In this document: one piece after another, positions 1 through 8,099 of the stretch
Numbering within the stretch: position 1 is the stretch's first letter
Layout of the letters: every line of letters starts with the position of its first letter
Assembly (NCBI GenBank): GCA_030429935.1
Contig: JAUIGH010000005.1
Span: 1 to 33,905, forward strand
Reading direction: 5' to 3'
Length of the DNA: 33,905 nt
Source of the DNA: a bacterium
GTDB taxonomy: Bacteria; Patescibacteriota; Saccharimonadia; Saccharimonadales; Saccharimonadaceae
Made by a program: the position numbers and the translations under genes
Notes under the pieces: model-generated
Told to the model about the DNA's origin: nothing
Database searches by the model: none
What the model saw: the letters and a program-made list of their open reading frames with translations, nothing else

Positions 1-1168
1 TCCATGGTGTCGTCGTCCAGGCCAGAAGGTGCATAGCTTTTTCACCCTCTATAAGCTCTTTGACCTTTGTTTCAATCTCATTTATATTTCGGCTCATTAT
101 CTCATCGCGATCAATATTGTCACCTGTCGTATCATCAATGTCCCAATGAACAACGTTATCGCCACTTAGCCATTCTGGCGAATCATCCTCGCCAGTAATG
201 TCCACAATAAGGTCATATTTTTTTATGTCATCTGGTTTTAATTGTGTGCGAGATGCATCACTAATATCAATTTCATAATCTTTTTGCAAAAACTCCTTCG
301 CTCGCCCCTGATGCCCAACTTGGAATGCTTTCATAGCCTCACTATATGTTTTTGCATCTGGATGAATAGTGTCTACGGCCACGCCTGCAGATTCAGCATT
401 GTTTGAATTAGTAAATTGATTGTAAAGAGCTTTTGCTATTTGTGAACGATTTATGTTGGCATAGCATACGAATAAGACTTTCGCACCTTTCTTTAATGGT
501 TCGCGAGTGTTCTCATTACTTTTTAACTTAAACTTTACATACACACTCGGCTCGGTCACATCCTGATACGCGCCGGCGTCCATGGTGACTTCGGCCTTGC
601 TGAGCGGCGTGCCGTCGAGCGTACAGTACATCAGGACTTTTTCGCCCTCGTAGATTTTGCCTTTTTCATATAGTTCTTTGAACGCCCACCAAATCGATTC
701 CATGTAGTCTTTGTCCATGGTCTTGTACGCACCCTGGAAATCCACCCAGCGTCCGATGCGATCGACTGTATCTTCCCAGGCGCTGCTGGTTTCGAGCATA
801 TTCTCGCGCGTAGCGTTGATGTATTTTTCGATACCGTAATCGATGACTTCTTGGCGACTGTGGATACCGAGTTTTTTCTCGGTAAATCGCTCGGCTGGTA
901 ATCCATGCGCGTCCCAGCCCCACACGCGCTCAACGCGCTTGCCTTTCATCGTCTGATACCGCGGCACAGCGTCTTTGACGATACTACTCAGCAGCGTACC
1001 GTGGTGCGGCACACCACTGATAAACGGCGGCCCGTCATAAAACACATAGCCGTTGTCTTTTGGTCGCTGTTCAACCGATTTCTCAAATGTCTTATCCTGC
1101 TTCCAGCGCTGCACCCAATCTTTTTCATACTCCAGCGCTCGCCTGCGTGTACCGTGTTTGAATTTCAT
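1..1168 (-). CDS. ileS: Isoleucyl-tRNA synthetase, N-terminal part (runs off left edge), with an inserted LMW-PTP/ArsC-like domain
   Basis: Hand translation from ATG at 1168: MKFKHGTRRRALEYEKDWVQRWKQ...YVFYDGPPFISGVPHHGTLLSSIVKDAVPRYQTMKGKRVERVWGWDAHGLPAE...SVYVKFKL[...KVLFVCYANINRSQIAKALYN...ESAGVAVD...VVHWDIDD...]MHLLAWTTTPW. Class I HxGH-type motif (PHHG) and WTTTPW present. Frame open to base 1. Confidence 0.95.
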   Translation of the reverse strand, partial: MKFKHGTRRRALEYEKDWVQRWKQDKTFEKSVEQRPKDNGYVFYDGPPFISGVPHHGTLLSSIVKDAVPRYQTMKGKRVERVWGWDAHGLPAERFTEKKLGIHSRQEVIDYGIEKYINATRENMLETSSAWEDTVDRIGRWVDFQGAYKTMDKDYMESIWWAFKELYEKGKIYEGEKVLMYCTLDGTPLSKAEVTMDAGAYQDVTEPSVYVKFKLKSNENTREPLKKGAKVLFVCYANINRSQIAKALYNQFTNSNNAESAGVAVDTIHPDAKTYSEAMKAFQVGHQGRAKEFLQKDYEIDISDASRTQLKPDDIKKYDLIVDITGEDDSPEWLSGDNVVHWDIDDTTGDNIDRDEIMSRNINEIETKVKELIEGEKAMHLLAWTTTPW

Positions 1169-1767
1169 GATTTTTCTCCTGTAATTATCGTTAGTAGTTC
1201 GGGGAACGCATCTGTCTGCAGGTCATGATAGCTAAAATGGCCTTTACCATCATACTGATGGTGCTGTACGTCGCGCACTGACTCCAAAATCTGCTTGGTT
1301 GATTGCTGCACATCGCTATCGTCATCACTCGAAACTAATAAATGGATCTCGTTTGCGCGACTTGAAAGTTCCGGATCAATATCAAAATCAAACATGTCCG
1401 TAGTCTGTTCACGAGCAGGGTCTAACCATGGAGCGACCAAAATGACTTTACCTACGCGAATTTCTGGATTTTCGCTCAAATAGCGAACCAAAAATCCAGC
1501 TCCACAACTATAACCGACGAGAATCATTTGCTCATTGAGTGGCAGATACCGCTCGAGCTCGATGAGCCATTTCTCATACGTAGGCTTGTATGCTTCATAA
1601 ACTTCTGGAGTGTGTGCCTCCCAGCCTTCGATCAATAGTTGCTTTTGCAGCCATGGTAGCCAGTGCGAGTTGCTGAGACTCGGAAATTCAGGCGAGCGAT
1701 ATTCGTTTTCATAACATGTGCCATGAAGTATGATCGCTCGCTGCCGAGCGTGGTGTTTGAATTTCAT
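1165..1767 (-). CDS. Alpha/beta hydrolase, RBBP9/YdeN-like serine hydrolase
   Basis: AIILHG, GYSCGAGFLVRYL nucleophile elbow, VILVAPWLDP, GKGHFSYHD; ATGA overlap with ileS. Confidence 0.85.
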   Translation of the reverse strand: MKFKHHARQRAIILHGTCYENEYRSPEFPSLSNSHWLPWLQKQLLIEGWEAHTPEVYEAYKPTYEKWLIELERYLPLNEQMILVGYSCGAGFLVRYLSENPEIRVGKVILVAPWLDPAREQTTDMFDFDIDPELSSRANEIHLLVSSDDDSDVQQSTKQILESVRDVQHHQYDGKGHFSYHDLQTDAFPELLTIITGEKS

Positions 1768-2312
1768 AGTTCCTCCTCTATTTGGTATTTCCAGCCCGGC
1801 TTCCAGGCACCAGTTTTACGCCAGTTTTCATTGATCGCTTGCTGCCATGTTTTGCCCCGTAGCAAGACTTCGAGCGCTAACTGCGGCGCTTCGTGTGCAA
1901 CAATCGCAATATGCTTGCCCGAATAATTTACTCGCAACATGTCCAAAAAATCTCTCATACGCGCTTCGACATCTTCGTAGCTTTCGCCATCTGGAAATGG
2001 CTCGCTGACAAAGTCGGCCATCGTCTCCTTGAACATATGTTTTTTGCCATTGTATTCACCGTAATTCGCTTCCCGCAAGCGCTTATCAATCACAATTTCA
2101 TGTGTATTTCCAAACCCAAGCCGTGCCGAATCAATCGCCCGACCGAGGTCAGAGCAAAACACAATCTCGAAGCTATTGTCGCTGATCTGGTTTGGCAATT
2201 CCGCGGCTTGCTGCGCACCTAGCTCGGACAATTCGCCAGGCAACCAGCCGGTCGCTCGCTTGGTTTCATTATCGCTCGTCGTACCGTGGACAAAATAGGT
2301 GATTTGTATCAT
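1764..2312 (-). CDS. Histidine phosphatase (phosphoglycerate mutase-like) family protein
   Basis: ITYFVHGTTSDNE...GELSELGAQQAAEL...VFCSDLGRAIDSA...REANYGEYNG...HIAIVAHEA; start set at ATG 2312 (ATGA overlap with upstream gene). Confidence 0.85.
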   Translation of the reverse strand: MIQITYFVHGTTSDNETKRATGWLPGELSELGAQQAAELPNQISDNSFEIVFCSDLGRAIDSARLGFGNTHEIVIDKRLREANYGEYNGKKHMFKETMADFVSEPFPDGESYEDVEARMRDFLDMLRVNYSGKHIAIVAHEAPQLALEVLLRGKTWQQAINENWRKTGAWKPGWKYQIEEEL

Positions 2313-2728
2313 TTTGTCTCCTTCCAAAACACTCGATACTCGCTCGCTTCGTGATAACCCAACTCGCGATACCGATTTAGTAGTTGATCATTGCTCGGAT
2401 TTGTGTACACGATAATGTCTTCGTGACCTCGGTCTTGAGCGATATTTCGTGCTGCAGCGTCGAGCTCGGCAGCCGCTTGCTCGGCCTGCCCGTTAGACGG
2501 ATCGACACAAAATCGTAGCAACCAGCAGCTGTGTGGATTGTCCATTATCATCACCGTGCCAACGACGACGTTGTCAATTTCGCACACTAACAGATCACCA
2601 GCTTTGGTTGTCGCTTCAAGTTTCTCGGCGGTATCGCGTGACGGATCGTATTTGCCACCGTATGACGCACTGTTTTTGTACAGAGTAACCACCTGCTCAA
2701 AATCTCGGTTTTCGTAGTTACGAATCAT
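2309..2728 (-). CDS. GNAT family N-acetyltransferase
   Basis: MIRNYENRDFEQVVTLYKNSASYGG...VVVGTVMIMDNPHSCWLLRFCVDPSNGQAEQAAAELDAAARNIAQDRG...LNRYRELGYHEASEYRVFWKE. Confidence 0.75.
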   Translation of the reverse strand: MIRNYENRDFEQVVTLYKNSASYGGKYDPSRDTAEKLEATTKAGDLLVCEIDNVVVGTVMIMDNPHSCWLLRFCVDPSNGQAEQAAAELDAAARNIAQDRGHEDIIVYTNPSNDQLLNRYRELGYHEASEYRVFWKETK

Positions 2729-3072
2729 GCCTTTGACTCCTCGTGATGCTTGGCTGGATCAAACGCTGGGCCGCAGCTGACGATCATATCGAACTCGCCG
2801 CCCCAGCGAAATCGCTCTAGCGGCGACAGATACATGACGTCGCCCTCGGCCAATTCTCGTCGCTGTTCACCGCGCACCTCGAGCCACCCGGTGCCGCTGA
2901 TGATGACGGCCATCTCGTGCGCTTCTTCGTTGTACGCCCAAGCCCGCGCCGGATACTCGCCACGAATCGATATCTTCGCCACATCCACTTGATCGCTAGT
3001 GGCGTACGAGCGTCCGTAACAGACATCGCTGTTGCGGAATTCTTCGCCCTCGGTGTCGCGCCAGTATCTCAT
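2725..3072 (-). CDS. Cupin-domain protein
   Basis: MRYWRDTEGEEFRNSDVCYGRSYATSDQVDVAKISIRGEYPARAWAYNEEAHEMAVIISGTGWLEVRGEQRRELAEGDVMYLSPLERFRWGGEFDMIVSCGPAFDP; start moved from track 3159 to ATG 3072 (ATGA overlap). Confidence 0.75.
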   Translation of the reverse strand: MRYWRDTEGEEFRNSDVCYGRSYATSDQVDVAKISIRGEYPARAWAYNEEAHEMAVIISGTGWLEVRGEQRRELAEGDVMYLSPLERFRWGGEFDMIVSCGPAFDPAKHHEESKA

Positions 3073-3599
3073 CGATCCGCCCCCCGCACCATCTTGACGA
3101 TTCGCATCGGGGTTTCTTTGTACGACTTTTCGCTGCCTGGTACGACTCGAAATCCGCATTTTTCATAGAATTTTCTCGCCCTGGCATTGTGAGCGGCGAC
3201 CCACAGAAACTGTTCGTTCTCACGGCCCAGCCAATCGATGGCCGGTTCTGCTAGCTTCATCGCTAGCCCGCTGCCGTAATCTGCTTTGTCGATGTATAGT
3301 CCGCATATCTCAGGCGCCTCGTCACGCCTGGCATCGACAAAGCCGGCGATCCGACCAGTTTCATCCGTGGCGATTCGTAAGTAGTAATCAGGATTTTCAG
3401 AGGCTTCTCGGATGAGCGTTTCTCGAAACTCCACGCCTTTTGGCGACAGCATGCCGTTTGCCATATACTCTTCGACCCATTCTCGCGAGATGTCGGCCGC
3501 CTCGTCAGGGTATGCATCGAGCCATGATTGGCGGTGCATGGCGATCAATCCATCGCGATCATCGACGGTTGGCTGCTTGACGGTGTACGTATGAACCAC
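3069..3599 (-). CDS. GNAT family N-acetyltransferase
   Basis: TVDDRDGLIAMHRQSWLDAYPDEA...GRIAGFVDARRDEAPEICGLYIDKADYGSGLAMKLAEPAIDWLG...NARARKFYEKCGFRVVPGSEKSYKETPMRIVKMV; likely GTG start at 3599 preceded by GGAG; the track start at 3614 (TTG) lies inside the leader. Confidence 0.85.
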   Translation of the reverse strand: MVHTYTVKQPTVDDRDGLIAMHRQSWLDAYPDEAADISREWVEEYMANGMLSPKGVEFRETLIREASENPDYYLRIATDETGRIAGFVDARRDEAPEICGLYIDKADYGSGLAMKLAEPAIDWLGRENEQFLWVAAHNARARKFYEKCGFRVVPGSEKSYKETPMRIVKMVRGADR

Positions 3600-3790
3600 G
3601 CCTGCTCCAAACAAAAATCCCTTCCTAGCTACTGGAATCCGCCTAGGGCTAGAGCGGACGGTACCATCCAGTTTCTAAGAAGAGATTCTTAGCACTTCAT
3701 TTATCTTTTACGCAGATTCACGGGAGATTCTACTGGGGCATACACCTGTTCTTTCTCCGACTCGTGGGTGATAGCCACTCATACGTCGTA
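3600..3790 (-). promoter_or_regulatory. T-box leader (tRNA-sensing), candidate Ile
   Basis: Minus-strand RNA contains ACTGGA-TGGTACC-GTCCGC-tctagcccta-GCGGAT-TCCAGT: helix A1 (ACTGGA/TCCAGT), the conserved 7-nt TGGNACC bulge, helix A2 (GTCCGC/GCGGAT). It is preceded by a stem III-like hairpin CTAAGAA-tctc-TTCTTAG and a helix GGAGA/TCTCC with opposing GAA and AGTA (S-turn-like). ileS is in the downstream operon. Confidence 0.8.
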
Positions 3791-5001: not shown

Positions 5002-5505
5002 TCACCACAACCACTTGCGGCGCTTGACGAAATCGTGACTCAGCCACCAGTCGGTGATACTCCATTCGCGTCGGCTGAGCGCAGCCACCCAGATGACCAC
5101 GGCGTAAATCAAATGGTCGTCGATGATCGGGTTGTTTTCCAGTGGCAATAGCGCCGCCCACATCAGTACTAATAGAACTGTCGCGCTAATTGCAGCGATA
5201 CGAAGCCCGATTCCGAGGATGAGCGCTAGGCCGATGCCGAGTAGACCAAACATAAACAGCCAATCCACCCATGCCATGCCAGCCAGACTGGTAAATACGC
5301 TCGCAAACGGGCTGTCGGGGTTTACACCGAACTGCAAAAAACCACTGGTTGGCGAGCCGCCACTGATCCAGGCGTTGCCTGATTCGGTCGCGTAGCCCAG
5401 TCCGAACGTCTTATCTAAAAATGCCCACAAAAATACGAATCCGATCATTATTCGCGCTAGTGCCAACATGTGCCAAGCGTTTTTATAAGTTGGATGTTTT
5501 TTCAT
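5002..5505 (-). CDS. DoxX/DoxD-like membrane protein
   Basis: LALARIMIGFVFLWAFLDKTFGLGY...SGNAWISGGSPTSGFL...GLLGIGLALILGIGLRIAAISATVLLVLMW...DDHLIYAVVIWVAAL; multiple TM helices. Confidence 0.75.
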   Translation of the reverse strand: MKKHPTYKNAWHMLALARIMIGFVFLWAFLDKTFGLGYATESGNAWISGGSPTSGFLQFGVNPDSPFASVFTSLAGMAWVDWLFMFGLLGIGLALILGIGLRIAAISATVLLVLMWAALLPLENNPIIDDHLIYAVVIWVAALSRREWSITDWWLSHDFVKRRKWLW

Positions 5506-5550
5506 GTAATGCCCCTTTTTTGGTTACTGTCGTTCATCTGGTAATTGAAT

Positions 5551-6180
5551 TTACGAAAACAGTCCTTCACCATATTTGATGATGATGGCAGCGATGACGG
5601 CTATGATCAGCGTCCACATAGCGAGTTTATCGAAATCTTTTTCGATCCAAGTATGAAGCGTTTTCTGGATGCGCTTTGGGAAATACAAATTATTTTCTCG
5701 GATGTTATAGCGCGTGATCGCGAACCAGACTAGCGTCGTGGTCAATGTGACGAGTAGGCACCACGGACAGAGTGCACCGATAATGAAATAGCTCACACCG
5801 AGGAGATATAGCGCAAATAGAAATCCAAGCGTATAAAATATCTGTGCCGTCGCCATGAACCAACGCGGAAACACGATGCCCGCCAAGCCCGCAACTGCCA
5901 CGGTGATGACTACTGGTTCTGCGATCATACCAAGAAAACTATTAGGAAATCCAAACAAATACGCCGACTCGTGCAAGCCCACCGTCGCACAGTTGAGCAC
6001 GATATTCACACTACACGCCAGGACCGCGTCAGGATTACGGGCTAATTCAACCGCTTCGACGCTGAGGACAAACGATGCGATTAAACTGGCGATCGAACCG
6101 ACCAACATGCTACCGAATATCCAGCGATTATCACGCAGCTTCTTGTCGCGGTGGGTAAAAAAATCAATCAATTTACGCAT
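5551..6180 (-). CDS. Vitamin K epoxide reductase (VKOR) family protein
   Basis: Polytopic; CSVNIVLNCATVGLHESAYLFGFPNSFLGM and CPWC active-site motif (GALCPWCLLVTL). Confidence 0.9.
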   Translation of the reverse strand: MRKLIDFFTHRDKKLRDNRWIFGSMLVGSIASLIASFVLSVEAVELARNPDAVLACSVNIVLNCATVGLHESAYLFGFPNSFLGMIAEPVVITVAVAGLAGIVFPRWFMATAQIFYTLGFLFALYLLGVSYFIIGALCPWCLLVTLTTTLVWFAITRYNIRENNLYFPKRIQKTLHTWIEKDFDKLAMWTLIIAVIAAIIIKYGEGLFS

Positions 6181-6430
6181 AATAACTCACTTCGCTGATC
6201 GTCGGCAACGGTGTGCCGCGCCAATGGTTTTGCAATTGACCATCGTCGGACAGAGCGATAATCGTCGGGTACTCGACGACGTCGTAGACGCGCGCAAAAT
6301 CAGCGCCTTCGCGGGTATCTGGGTCCATCGTCTCGAGCTGTCGGCCGGTTTGGCGCGCAAAATCGCGCAGATAATCCGAGACTTGCCGGCCATGATCTGA
6401 GGCCTCGCGGTACAATACGACGACTCTCAT
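6173..6430 (-). CDS. Small thioredoxin-fold-like protein lacking CXXC
   Basis: MRVVVLYREASDHGRQVSDYLRDFARQTGRQLETMDPDTREGADFARVYDVVEYPTIIALSDDGQLQNHWRGTPLPTISEV; YPTI cis-Pro-like loop; overlaps VKOR and NrdR genes. Confidence 0.55.
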   Translation of the reverse strand: MRVVVLYREASDHGRQVSDYLRDFARQTGRQLETMDPDTREGADFARVYDVVEYPTIIALSDDGQLQNHWRGTPLPTISEVSYYA

Positions 6431-6900
6431 CCGGCGTTCTCCTCGTCTTTTTGCTGACGCTTGGTTTCGAGTATGTTGACGAAATCATCCAACGTCCGAA
6501 AATCGTGAAACACGCTGGCAAATCGGACATAGGCGACTTCGTTGACATCAGCTAATTTATCGAGCACGATCTGACCGATGGCACGCGACGCGACTTCGTT
6601 TTCACCCAGGTCATACACCTGGTCTTCGATGTCGTTGATGATTGACTCGACTTCCATCTCAGATTCAAAAAATTTCCCGACCGAACGGTGTACAGCAGCG
6701 GCGAGTTTGTCGCGGTCGAACAACTCGCGCGTGCCATCGCGTTTGACGACGGCGATATTGCGCCGTTCGATGCGTTCATAGGTGGTAAAACGGTGGCCGT
6801 CTGATGTCTCGCGGCGACGGCGGATCGCCAAACCGTCGGTCGATTCGCGTGATTCCAAGACGCGGCTGTCACCGATCTTGTAGTTATTCGTCATCGACAC
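6427..6900 (-). CDS. nrdR: NrdR-like ATP-cone repressor with lost zinc ribbon
   Basis: DSRESTDGLAIRRRRETSDGHRFTTYERIE then ATP-cone VVKRDGTRELFDRDKLAAAVHRSVGK...IINDIEDQVYDLGENEVASRAIGQIVLDKLADVNEVAYVRFASVFHDFRTLDDFVNIL. Confidence 0.85.
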   Translation of the reverse strand: MSMTNNYKIGDSRVLESRESTDGLAIRRRRETSDGHRFTTYERIERRNIAVVKRDGTRELFDRDKLAAAVHRSVGKFFESEMEVESIINDIEDQVYDLGENEVASRAIGQIVLDKLADVNEVAYVRFASVFHDFRTLDDFVNILETKRQQKDEENAG

Positions 6901-6905
6901 GCCTC

Positions 6906-8099
6906 CTAGTCTTCGCTGTCTTGCTTTTTCTTGCGGCGACGCAAAAATGCCGGCGTATCGTCATCGTCGTCGTTGGTGCTGGTGTCCGGTTCGTTCCACA
7001 TCTCGCCTTGCTCATCGGCCGCGAAGTGTTCGGCACTGTCGACTGTCTCGGCGCTGTCACCGTCCTCATCGATCTCAGCGACGGCACGGTCCATGGCTTC
7101 GCTGGTGTCGCCCGAGGCTGACTCGCTGCCGGTTTCGCTAAACGGACTATCAAATCCGGTGGCGATGACGGTGATGACCAGCTCGTCTTCGATTTCTGGT
7201 TTCAAGGTCGCGCCAAAGATGATGTTGGCATCTGGGCTGACGGCACTGGTGATGATTTCAGCGGCTTCTTGGATCTCGGCCATGCTCATATCGTAGCCAC
7301 CGGTGACGTTGAACAGCACGCCTTTGGCGCCGTCGATGCTGACTTCGATGAGTGGTGATTCGATGGCTTGCTGGGCAGCCTGAGCGGCACGTTCGTCGCC
7401 ACTGGCTCGTCCGATACCCATCAGGGCTGATCCGGCGTTACTCATGATGGCTTTGACGTCGGCAAAGTCGAGATTGATCAAACCATGCTCGGTAATCAAT
7501 TCTGAAATACCCTGGACGCCTTGGCGTAGGACATCGTCGGCGATTTTAAAGGTTTCGAGCAGCGGCGTGCGGCGGTCGATGGTCTGCAACAAACGGTCGT
7601 TCGGGATGGTGATCAGCGTATCGACTTGGCGACCCAGGTTGTTGATGGCACCCTCGGCATTGAGGCGGCGCTTTTCGCCTTCAAAACTGAATGGCTTGGT
7701 GGCGACACCGACGGTCAGAATGCCCATGTCGCGGGCGACTTCACCGACGACGTGGCCGGCACCTGAACCAGTACCACCGCCGGCACCGATGGTGACGAAC
7801 ACCATGTCGGCGCCCTCGAGAGCGTCGCGGATTTCGTCGATCGATTCACGAGCGGCTTGCTCACCGACGCCGGGATCAGCGCCAGCACCGAGACCATTGG
7901 TCGTGTTGTGGCCGAGGTGGATTTTGACATCGGCTTTTGAGTTGTGGAGTGCCTGAGCATCAGTATTCATGGCGATGAACTGGACACCGGTCAGACCGGC
8001 ATCTTTCATGCGATTAACTGCACTGCCACCAGCACCGCCGACACCGACGACTTTGATGCTCGCAAATGATTCAATCTCGTTTGGTTTGACTTCAGGCAT
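6906..8099 (-). CDS. ftsZ: Cell division protein FtsZ
   Basis: IKVVGVGGAGGSAVNRM, GAGADPGVG, FVTIGAGGGTGSGAGHVVGEVA tubulin signature. Confidence 0.98.
   Translation of the reverse strand: MPEVKPNEIESFASIKVVGVGGAGGSAVNRMKDAGLTGVQFIAMNTDAQALHNSKADVKIHLGHNTTNGLGAGADPGVGEQAARESIDEIRDALEGADMVFVTIGAGGGTGSGAGHVVGEVARDMGILTVGVATKPFSFEGEKRRLNAEGAINNLGRQVDTLITIPNDRLLQTIDRRTPLLETFKIADDVLRQGVQGISELITEHGLINLDFADVKAIMSNAGSALMGIGRASGDERAAQAAQQAIESPLIEVSIDGAKGVLFNVTGGYDMSMAEIQEAAEIITSAVSPDANIIFGATLKPEIEDELVITVIATGFDSPFSETGSESASGDTSEAMDRAVAEIDEDGDSAETVDSAEHFAADEQGEMWNEPDTSTNDDDDDTPAFLRRRKKKQDSED

Follow-up and report, generated by a model that had tools for sequence, protein, structure and literature searches.

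What is a phosphatase doing inside an isoleucyl-tRNA synthetase (IleRS), and how did it come to be there? Few enzymes are as conserved as the aminoacyl-tRNA synthetases, and the gene in question belongs to the Saccharibacteria, which are very small and live on other bacteria. The window, by which we mean the whole stretch of 33,905 nucleotides analyzed here, is the entire contig C58 of an 823-kb MAG. An earlier note on this DNA had described one uninterrupted frame that reads from IleRS into an LMW-PTP domain and back into IleRS, and the open frame, the Pfam matches, and the AlphaFold and Foldseek results agree with that description (Table 1).

A phosphatase fold at the CP1 entry of IleRS

Table 1. 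Coordinates of ileS, its insert, and the genes and leader ahead of it in the window.
Feature	Position	Strand	Remarks
ileS, 5' part	2..1168	-	Open frame of 389 codons that exits at the contig start; N-terminal catalytic half, embedded LMW-PTP and LLAWTTTPW
LLAWTTTPW, IleRS restart, CP1 editing-domain signature	2..28	-	
Inserted segment, residues 216–380, linker and LMW-PTP-fold enzyme	29..523	-	In place of a short hairpin turn
LMWPc domain PF01451	53..478	-	Pfam match; fold agrees
WDIDD, candidate general-acid loop	131..145	-	Last Asp is residue 346 (131–133), invariant
P-loop CYANINRS (CX5RS), residues 235–242, with Cys235 and Arg241	443..466	-	
IleRS residues 1–215, Rossmann half	524..1168	-	Profile match; 93% identity to G051
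RBBP9-like serine hydrolase, cargo gene	1165..1767	-	Stop overlaps ileS start
Histidine phosphatase, cargo gene	1764..2327	-	Related to the domain embedded in G030 IleRS (2e-44)
GNAT acetyltransferase, cargo gene	2309..2728	-	
Cupin, cargo gene	2725..3159	-	
GNAT acetyltransferase, cargo gene	3069..3614	-	
T-box leader, tRNA-Ile type, ultrashort stem I, AUC in loop	3622..3795	-	Operon head; Rfam and covariance model

Pfam assigns residues 18–230 of the window frame to tRNA-synt_1 (2.3e-56) and residues 231–372 to LMWPc (3.8e-7), the latter at 30.8 bits and so above its gathering score of 23.2. Against the full-length IleRS model TIGR00392 the frame scores 234 bits (cut-off 621), the window holding the 5' part of the gene only; TTTPW is present, and the KMSKS position falls outside the window. 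The insert, previously placed at 35–490, is present but slightly wider (29–523).

The nearest relatives of this IleRS, from G049 and G148, are ≈93% identical to it across the N-terminal 215 residues and have no insert. Their site reads VYVKFKLKDDRSLLAWTTTPW or VYVKFKLKDGRTLLAWTTTPW, with the turn KDDRS or KDGRT, and spans 21 residues compared with 181 in the window, so that a short turn has been swapped for ≈160 residues. Counted on the alignment, this turn corresponds to the Thermus thermophilus IleRS loop at about residues 212–223, just ahead of WTTTPW at the entry to CP1, which is where the earlier note had located the insertion. No direct repeats were seen by eye around the insert. Because an AlphaFold model of the full-length L113 fusion, built from four sequences, failed (pLDDT 36), we argue from the T. 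thermophilus alignment that the embedded domain would form an extrusion. As read from the gene sequences, these comparisons show a native Saccharibacterial ileS (family-level group f1) in which a surface hairpin turn at the CP1 entry has given way to a complete enzyme of LMW-PTP fold.

Modeled in isolation from 13 aligned sequences with AF2, the inserted domain reaches a pLDDT of 85 and a pTM of 0.83. The best match to this model in a Foldseek search of the PDB is the LMW-PTP 4egs (4.7e-6), followed by ArsC and Wzb, and the matches listed are LMW-PTP or ArsC. The P-loop Cys, Asn, Arg, and Ser are invariant in all nine fused copies found (see below), and the acid motif W-x-[IV]-x-D is likewise present in nine of nine, in keeping with the signature and candidate acid first noted in the window. 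A complete LMW-PTP/ArsC-fold domain is thus confirmed inside IleRS. It shares with the LMW-PTP/ArsC superfamily (PF01451) the fold, the CX5RS loop, and the downstream acid, and differs in lying within IleRS, in lacking an initiator Met, in having one Cys, and in an extra N-terminal linker. Phosphatase activity is plausible.

A second suggestion, that the module is an arsenate reductase, we reject. Thioredoxin- or glutaredoxin-coupled ArsC enzymes require a resolving Cys, and the P-loop Cys is the only one in the entire insert; the NCBIfam ArsC models score 31 bits against a cut-off of 158.

The insert is AT-rich relative to the ileS flank, as had been remarked (GC 0.386 versus 0.510; GC3 0.30 versus 0.62). 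Recent acquisition, which was proposed from this difference, fits the insert-free nearest relatives. However, 23 of 24 enzyme inserts (from loci partly picked for long frames) have a lower GC3 than their host gene, and low GC3 may therefore mirror the character of the cargo rather than its recency.

Recurrence of the fusion and movement between loops

The same phosphatase occurs inside IleRS in nine of 394 genomes searched from the Saccharibacteria family of the window (group f1). It uses four loops, at residues 217, 298, 504, and 571 in the numbering of the insert-free G019 IleRS: site 217 in the window, G146, G205, G023, and G005, site 298 in G044, site 504 in G404 and G346, and site 571 in G345. 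Six of the nine fusions (G146, G205, G044, G404, G346, and G345) reach the C terminus with KMSKS, TTTPW, and GTGIVH intact, and two of them exceed the TIGR00392 cut-off (L113 from G146, 1156 residues, 783 bits; L128 from G404, 761 bits). The fused frames of the window and of G005 exit their contigs. In G023, the fused IleRS (L112:5293-6777) meets a stop after 495 codons, close to the contig end. Those fused records that carry names belong to the Saccharibacteria or are MAGs under the label Candidatus Nomurabacteria, which here cluster with the window family. The fused phosphatases are ≈40% identical to the window copy. Because nine Saccharibacteria share this phosphatase inside IleRS, the fusion is neither a lone oddity nor a misassembly; the earlier note had called for a search of related genomes, and the architecture recurs there in independent assemblies with the downstream ileS intact.

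That the window itself reflects misassembly or a binning artefact had to be weighed, since its insert lies at a contig end and another contig of the same bin, C17, carries a chimeric-looking ileS. The latter (L137, near the contig end at 18187) has a Saccharibacterial IleRS C-terminal part of ≈720 residues from WTTTPW, 83% identical to G162, behind a first 223 residues that are bacterial IleRS1-like and ≈28% identical to the window family. We do not regard it as a normal paralogue, as its foreign N terminus is joined at WTTTPW. Its 3' part probably belongs to the window ileS and was joined to a misassembled end; this join would have to be placed by inference, since C58 and C17 were not found to overlap exactly over any long stretch. 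For the family as a whole, misassembly is refuted by the same architecture in independent assemblies, which hold the insert and both flanks on a single contig, and for the window it is exceedingly improbable, its upstream genes fitting the ileS neighborhood of relatives by synteny.

The phosphatase is one of several enzymes found in this position. Pfam identifies YunG (G072), NUDIX (G040), GNAT (G005), serine hydrolase (G008), and histidine phosphatase (G030 and G044) among IleRS inserts, together with a sub-threshold 2H phosphoesterase match in G145. G014 and G044 have three enzyme-sized inserts each, and site 217 of G064, G230, and G298 holds mutually related domains that match no named family. 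The sequences thereby show that the relatives accommodate this and other whole enzymes in a small number of fixed loops, their IleRS being otherwise intact.

Inteins and introns favor in-frame sites in essential, conserved genes, and the position in ileS would suit an element that is removed by protein or RNA splicing to leave a mature IleRS without insert. We consider this highly improbable: Pfam scans of the fusions contain no Hint/intein family and an Rfam scan no intron family, the insert substitutes a nonconserved turn and splits no conserved motif, and unrelated enzymes serve as inserts at one site.

To account for the distribution of the fusion, we turned to trees and to the edges of the insert. 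On an IleRS tree of 84 loci with the insert columns left out, the LMW-PTP label needs seven changes, which implies that it was gained or lost several times. Resolution of the phosphatase tree is weak; within it, five fused copies from sites 217, 504, and 571 cluster with support of 86/91. Every fused copy has a linker [LVI]xxx[SA][KR] before the first strand (LKKGAK, LNKNSK, VDENSK), which is absent from the three nearest stand-alone phosphatases, and most retain a tail resembling a stand-alone C terminus. The common linker and tail suggest that a fused cassette has moved between IleRS loops. The fusion has probably been gained several times, in part by such movement.

Two genes upstream of ileS open with copies of the ileS start. 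The first 15 nt of the window serine hydrolase gene are identical to it (1753-1767 versus 1154-1168, minus strand), and the protein start MKFKHHARQRA has a pattern in common with the ileS start MKFKH..R.RA; in G023, a PemK-like gene directly upstream of ileS (L112:4742-5293) opens with the copy MKYKYGSRRRAVEYEKDF. These copies are a hint that the ileS start may be duplicated during insertion.

A tRNA-Ile T-box leader and the genes between it and ileS

The leader at the head of the window operon matches the Rfam T-box family RF00230 at 26.9 bits (E 3.7e-4) and that of L105 at 36.9 bits (E 1.5e-4), both under the gathering score of 93; the match is stronger in G006 than in the window. A lineage covariance model (R1) built from 21 aligned leaders gives the window leader 144 bits. 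In this alignment AUC and UGGUACC are invariant (21/21), the S-turn reads AGUA, and 28 of 33 predicted pairs show compensatory change across the 21 loci. R1 matches range from 1e-39 to 1e-20, many at loci outside model building, and no match occurs in 25 control loci totaling 148 kb (leuS/valS and others), nor was a T-box found upstream of leuS or valS. The leader shows a specifier codon, the S-turn, the UGGUACC bulge, and antiterminator/antisequestrator pairing, upstream of the cognate synthetase. Present in 84 of 101 relatives and nearly always single per genome, it precedes ileS on a shared contig and strand in each of the 74 genomes where the two could be placed.

These leaders resemble the actinobacterial ileS T-boxes described in Nocardia farcinica and Mycobacterium tuberculosis (PMC7583486; folding in PMC10651847) in preceding ileS, in a short stem I with an Ile codon, in an AGUA-type S-turn, and in the UGGUACC T-box. 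They differ in falling under the Rfam gathering score and in having cargo genes before ileS. Most published actinobacterial T-boxes, those of ileS among them, regulate translation, and they sense whether the tRNA is aminoacylated (PMC7583486, PMC10651847); by analogy the Saccharibacterial leader is predicted to sense uncharged tRNA-Ile. Some genomes with fusions (G404, G346, and G014) lack a T-box within the sequence searched; fusion can therefore occur without T-box control.

In the window, 2453 nt separate the T-box from ileS. A gap of at least 150 nt (151–3078 nt) occurs in 33 of 48 genomes of the window family compared with three of 26 in other families, where the gap is ≈30 nt and under 150 nt in 23 of 26; this set of 74 genomes was not picked for long frames. 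Where the sequence was read, the window-family gaps hold mostly one to five genes, encoding NUDIX, GNAT, cupin, inositol monophosphatase, histidine phosphatase, ArsC, serine hydrolase, methyladenine glycosylase, PemK-like, YunG, and other proteins. In the window family, therefore, gene order and predicted products show that small-enzyme genes gather between a conserved tRNA-Ile T-box leader and ileS. Five families (NUDIX, GNAT, His_Phos, Ser_hydrolase, and YunG) are found both inside IleRS and interposed. Among T-box loci, interposed genes went with a large insert (12 of 15 versus 19 of 43; p=0.03 in a chosen sample, uncorrected for phylogeny).

Further upstream, positions 5002-8099 of the window keep the upstream neighborhood of ileS that is conserved in this family, with genes that we named from reading the sequence as FtsZ, NrdR-like, glutaredoxin-like, VKOR-like, and DoxX-like.

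Passenger enzymes and other explanations

On balance we think it fairly probable that ileS is a cargo locus controlled by tRNA-Ile, in which the phosphatase travels as a passenger enzyme through its fusion to IleRS. Following the example of the translation-regulating ileS T-boxes of actinobacteria, the leader would switch the operon on in response to uncharged tRNA-Ile, and more IleRS and passenger enzymes would be made, the passengers either from separate genes or built into IleRS as an extruded domain. Enzymes that gain from T-box control or from linkage to an essential gene would settle before ileS or inside IleRS, and a passenger fused to an essential gene would be expressed and retained along with it in a small genome. 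The embedded phosphatase is probably an active passenger domain; it would be expected to act on phosphomonoesters while IleRS still charges and edits tRNA-Ile. The sequences show the anatomy, the recurrence, the conservation, and the leader, from which we infer that the fusion is expressed as such, is active, is induced, and is of benefit.

A different possibility is that the target of the embedded enzymes is the synthetase reaction itself; they might, for instance, strip phosphoryl groups off IleRS, tRNA-Ile, or an analogue of the aminoacyl-adenylate, and IleRS would then be a regulated multienzyme machine or would contain its own protection against inhibitors of charging. The inserts lie in the CP1-entry and neighboring loops, the cargo stands behind a leader predicted to sense uncharged tRNA-Ile, the catalytic residues are constrained, and GNAT, NUDIX, and phosphatase domains could act on nucleotides or aminoacyl-nucleotides. 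We nevertheless judge such coupling unlikely, for the cargo covers a very wide range of chemistry (cupin, serine hydrolase, DNA glycosylases, PemK-like, and YunG as well), one enzyme occupies four different loops, and most relatives have no large insert. Cargo that is chemically mixed and can be swapped among genomes, loops, and stand-alone genes speaks against a single function linked to aminoacylation, and we found no specific support for the redox or phospho sensor or the tRNA-end processing activity that the earlier note had considered.

The same loops also accept sequence of other kinds. Shorter inserts of 25–60 residues in them are low-complexity or palindromic-repeat translations, and the LMW-PTP sits inside IleRS in only the nine of 394 family genomes given above. 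LeuRS has inserts too, and inserts are thus not exclusive to IleRS. ValRS of most genomes has no insert. As the LeuRS inserts occur without a T-box, insertion tolerance may belong to CP1-type synthetases rather than to the T-box locus. The short inserts, the small number of fused genomes, and the LeuRS inserts would suit a neutral reading in which surface loops of IleRS and LeuRS tolerate whatever DNA arrives in frame and the embedded enzymes are transient by-products that bring no benefit. Random capture would be expected to leave mostly broken fragments, whereas catalytic residues and domain integrity are retained in all nine fused copies despite their divergence from the window copy, and the same enzyme families recur in the T-box–ileS interval; neutrality accordingly strikes us as improbable.

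Several side observations concern these other inserts. In-frame palindromic repeats of ≈80–110 nt are seen in IleRS loops of L157, L151, and L159 (sites 217 and 670), L100 (site 252), and L079 (site 850), and one such repeat has more copies in G220 and G358. The LeuRS of the window genome (G000:C34, L179) contains NUDIX within one open frame; inserts are found in L180-L191 as well, NUDIX at ≈239 or ≈369 in insert-free LeuRS numbering (domain named by eye), and an ASCH-like LeuRS insert, also named by eye, occurs in G072 and G130.

Returning to ileS as a cargo locus, a bolder version may be put forward tentatively, and we hold it to be rather doubtful as a whole: the ileS of the window family would be a gene-capture platform in which a tRNA-Ile-sensing leader drives exchangeable stress enzymes before or inside the synthetase, with cassettes moving between loops and genomes. 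If this were true, IleRS would double as a carrier and a starvation-induced delivery device for accessory enzymes.

Parts of this picture have precedents, synthetases with extra domains and ileS T-boxes being already known kinds. The NCBIfam family NF040702 (ileS_w_GNAT) is an IleRS annotated with an additional enzyme domain, an N-acetyltransferase; the Saccharibacterial proteins score 175–259 bits against its cut-off of 1999, and their enzyme varies by genome and occupies several loops. Rickettsia palindromic elements are in-frame repeats in coding genes, similar to the short palindromic repeats that several Saccharibacteria have, in frame, within their IleRS loops, whereas the window insert is a whole enzyme with no repeat. 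Extra synthetase domains, appended or inserted, include UNE-I of vertebrate IARS1 (PMC9643514); the Saccharibacterial inserts differ in being exchangeable whole enzymes, in internal loops, that vary between related bacteria. In the open-access literature searched, we found no report of such IleRS fusions or of T-boxes in Saccharibacteria, nor of synthetase loops with exchangeable whole enzymes and the same enzyme kinds in an operon behind a tRNA sensor.

A synthetase that repeatedly takes in whole, unrelated, apparently working enzymes bears on the reach of an essential enzyme as a scaffold, and its loops offer protein engineering a set of natural sites for insertion. With its interposed cargo, the T-box makes a testable claim on how host-dependent bacteria may meet isoleucine shortage. 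For annotation, such fused genes risk being called frameshifted, chimeric, or duplicated.

One feature of the synthetase itself is also unusual. The class I motif in the window IleRS is HHGT (PHHGT, 995-1006, minus strand) in place of HxGH; HHGT is found in 77 of 84 ileS loci and HYGT in four. An altered signature motif in IleRS2 has been linked to mupirocin hyper-resistance (PMC10485003).
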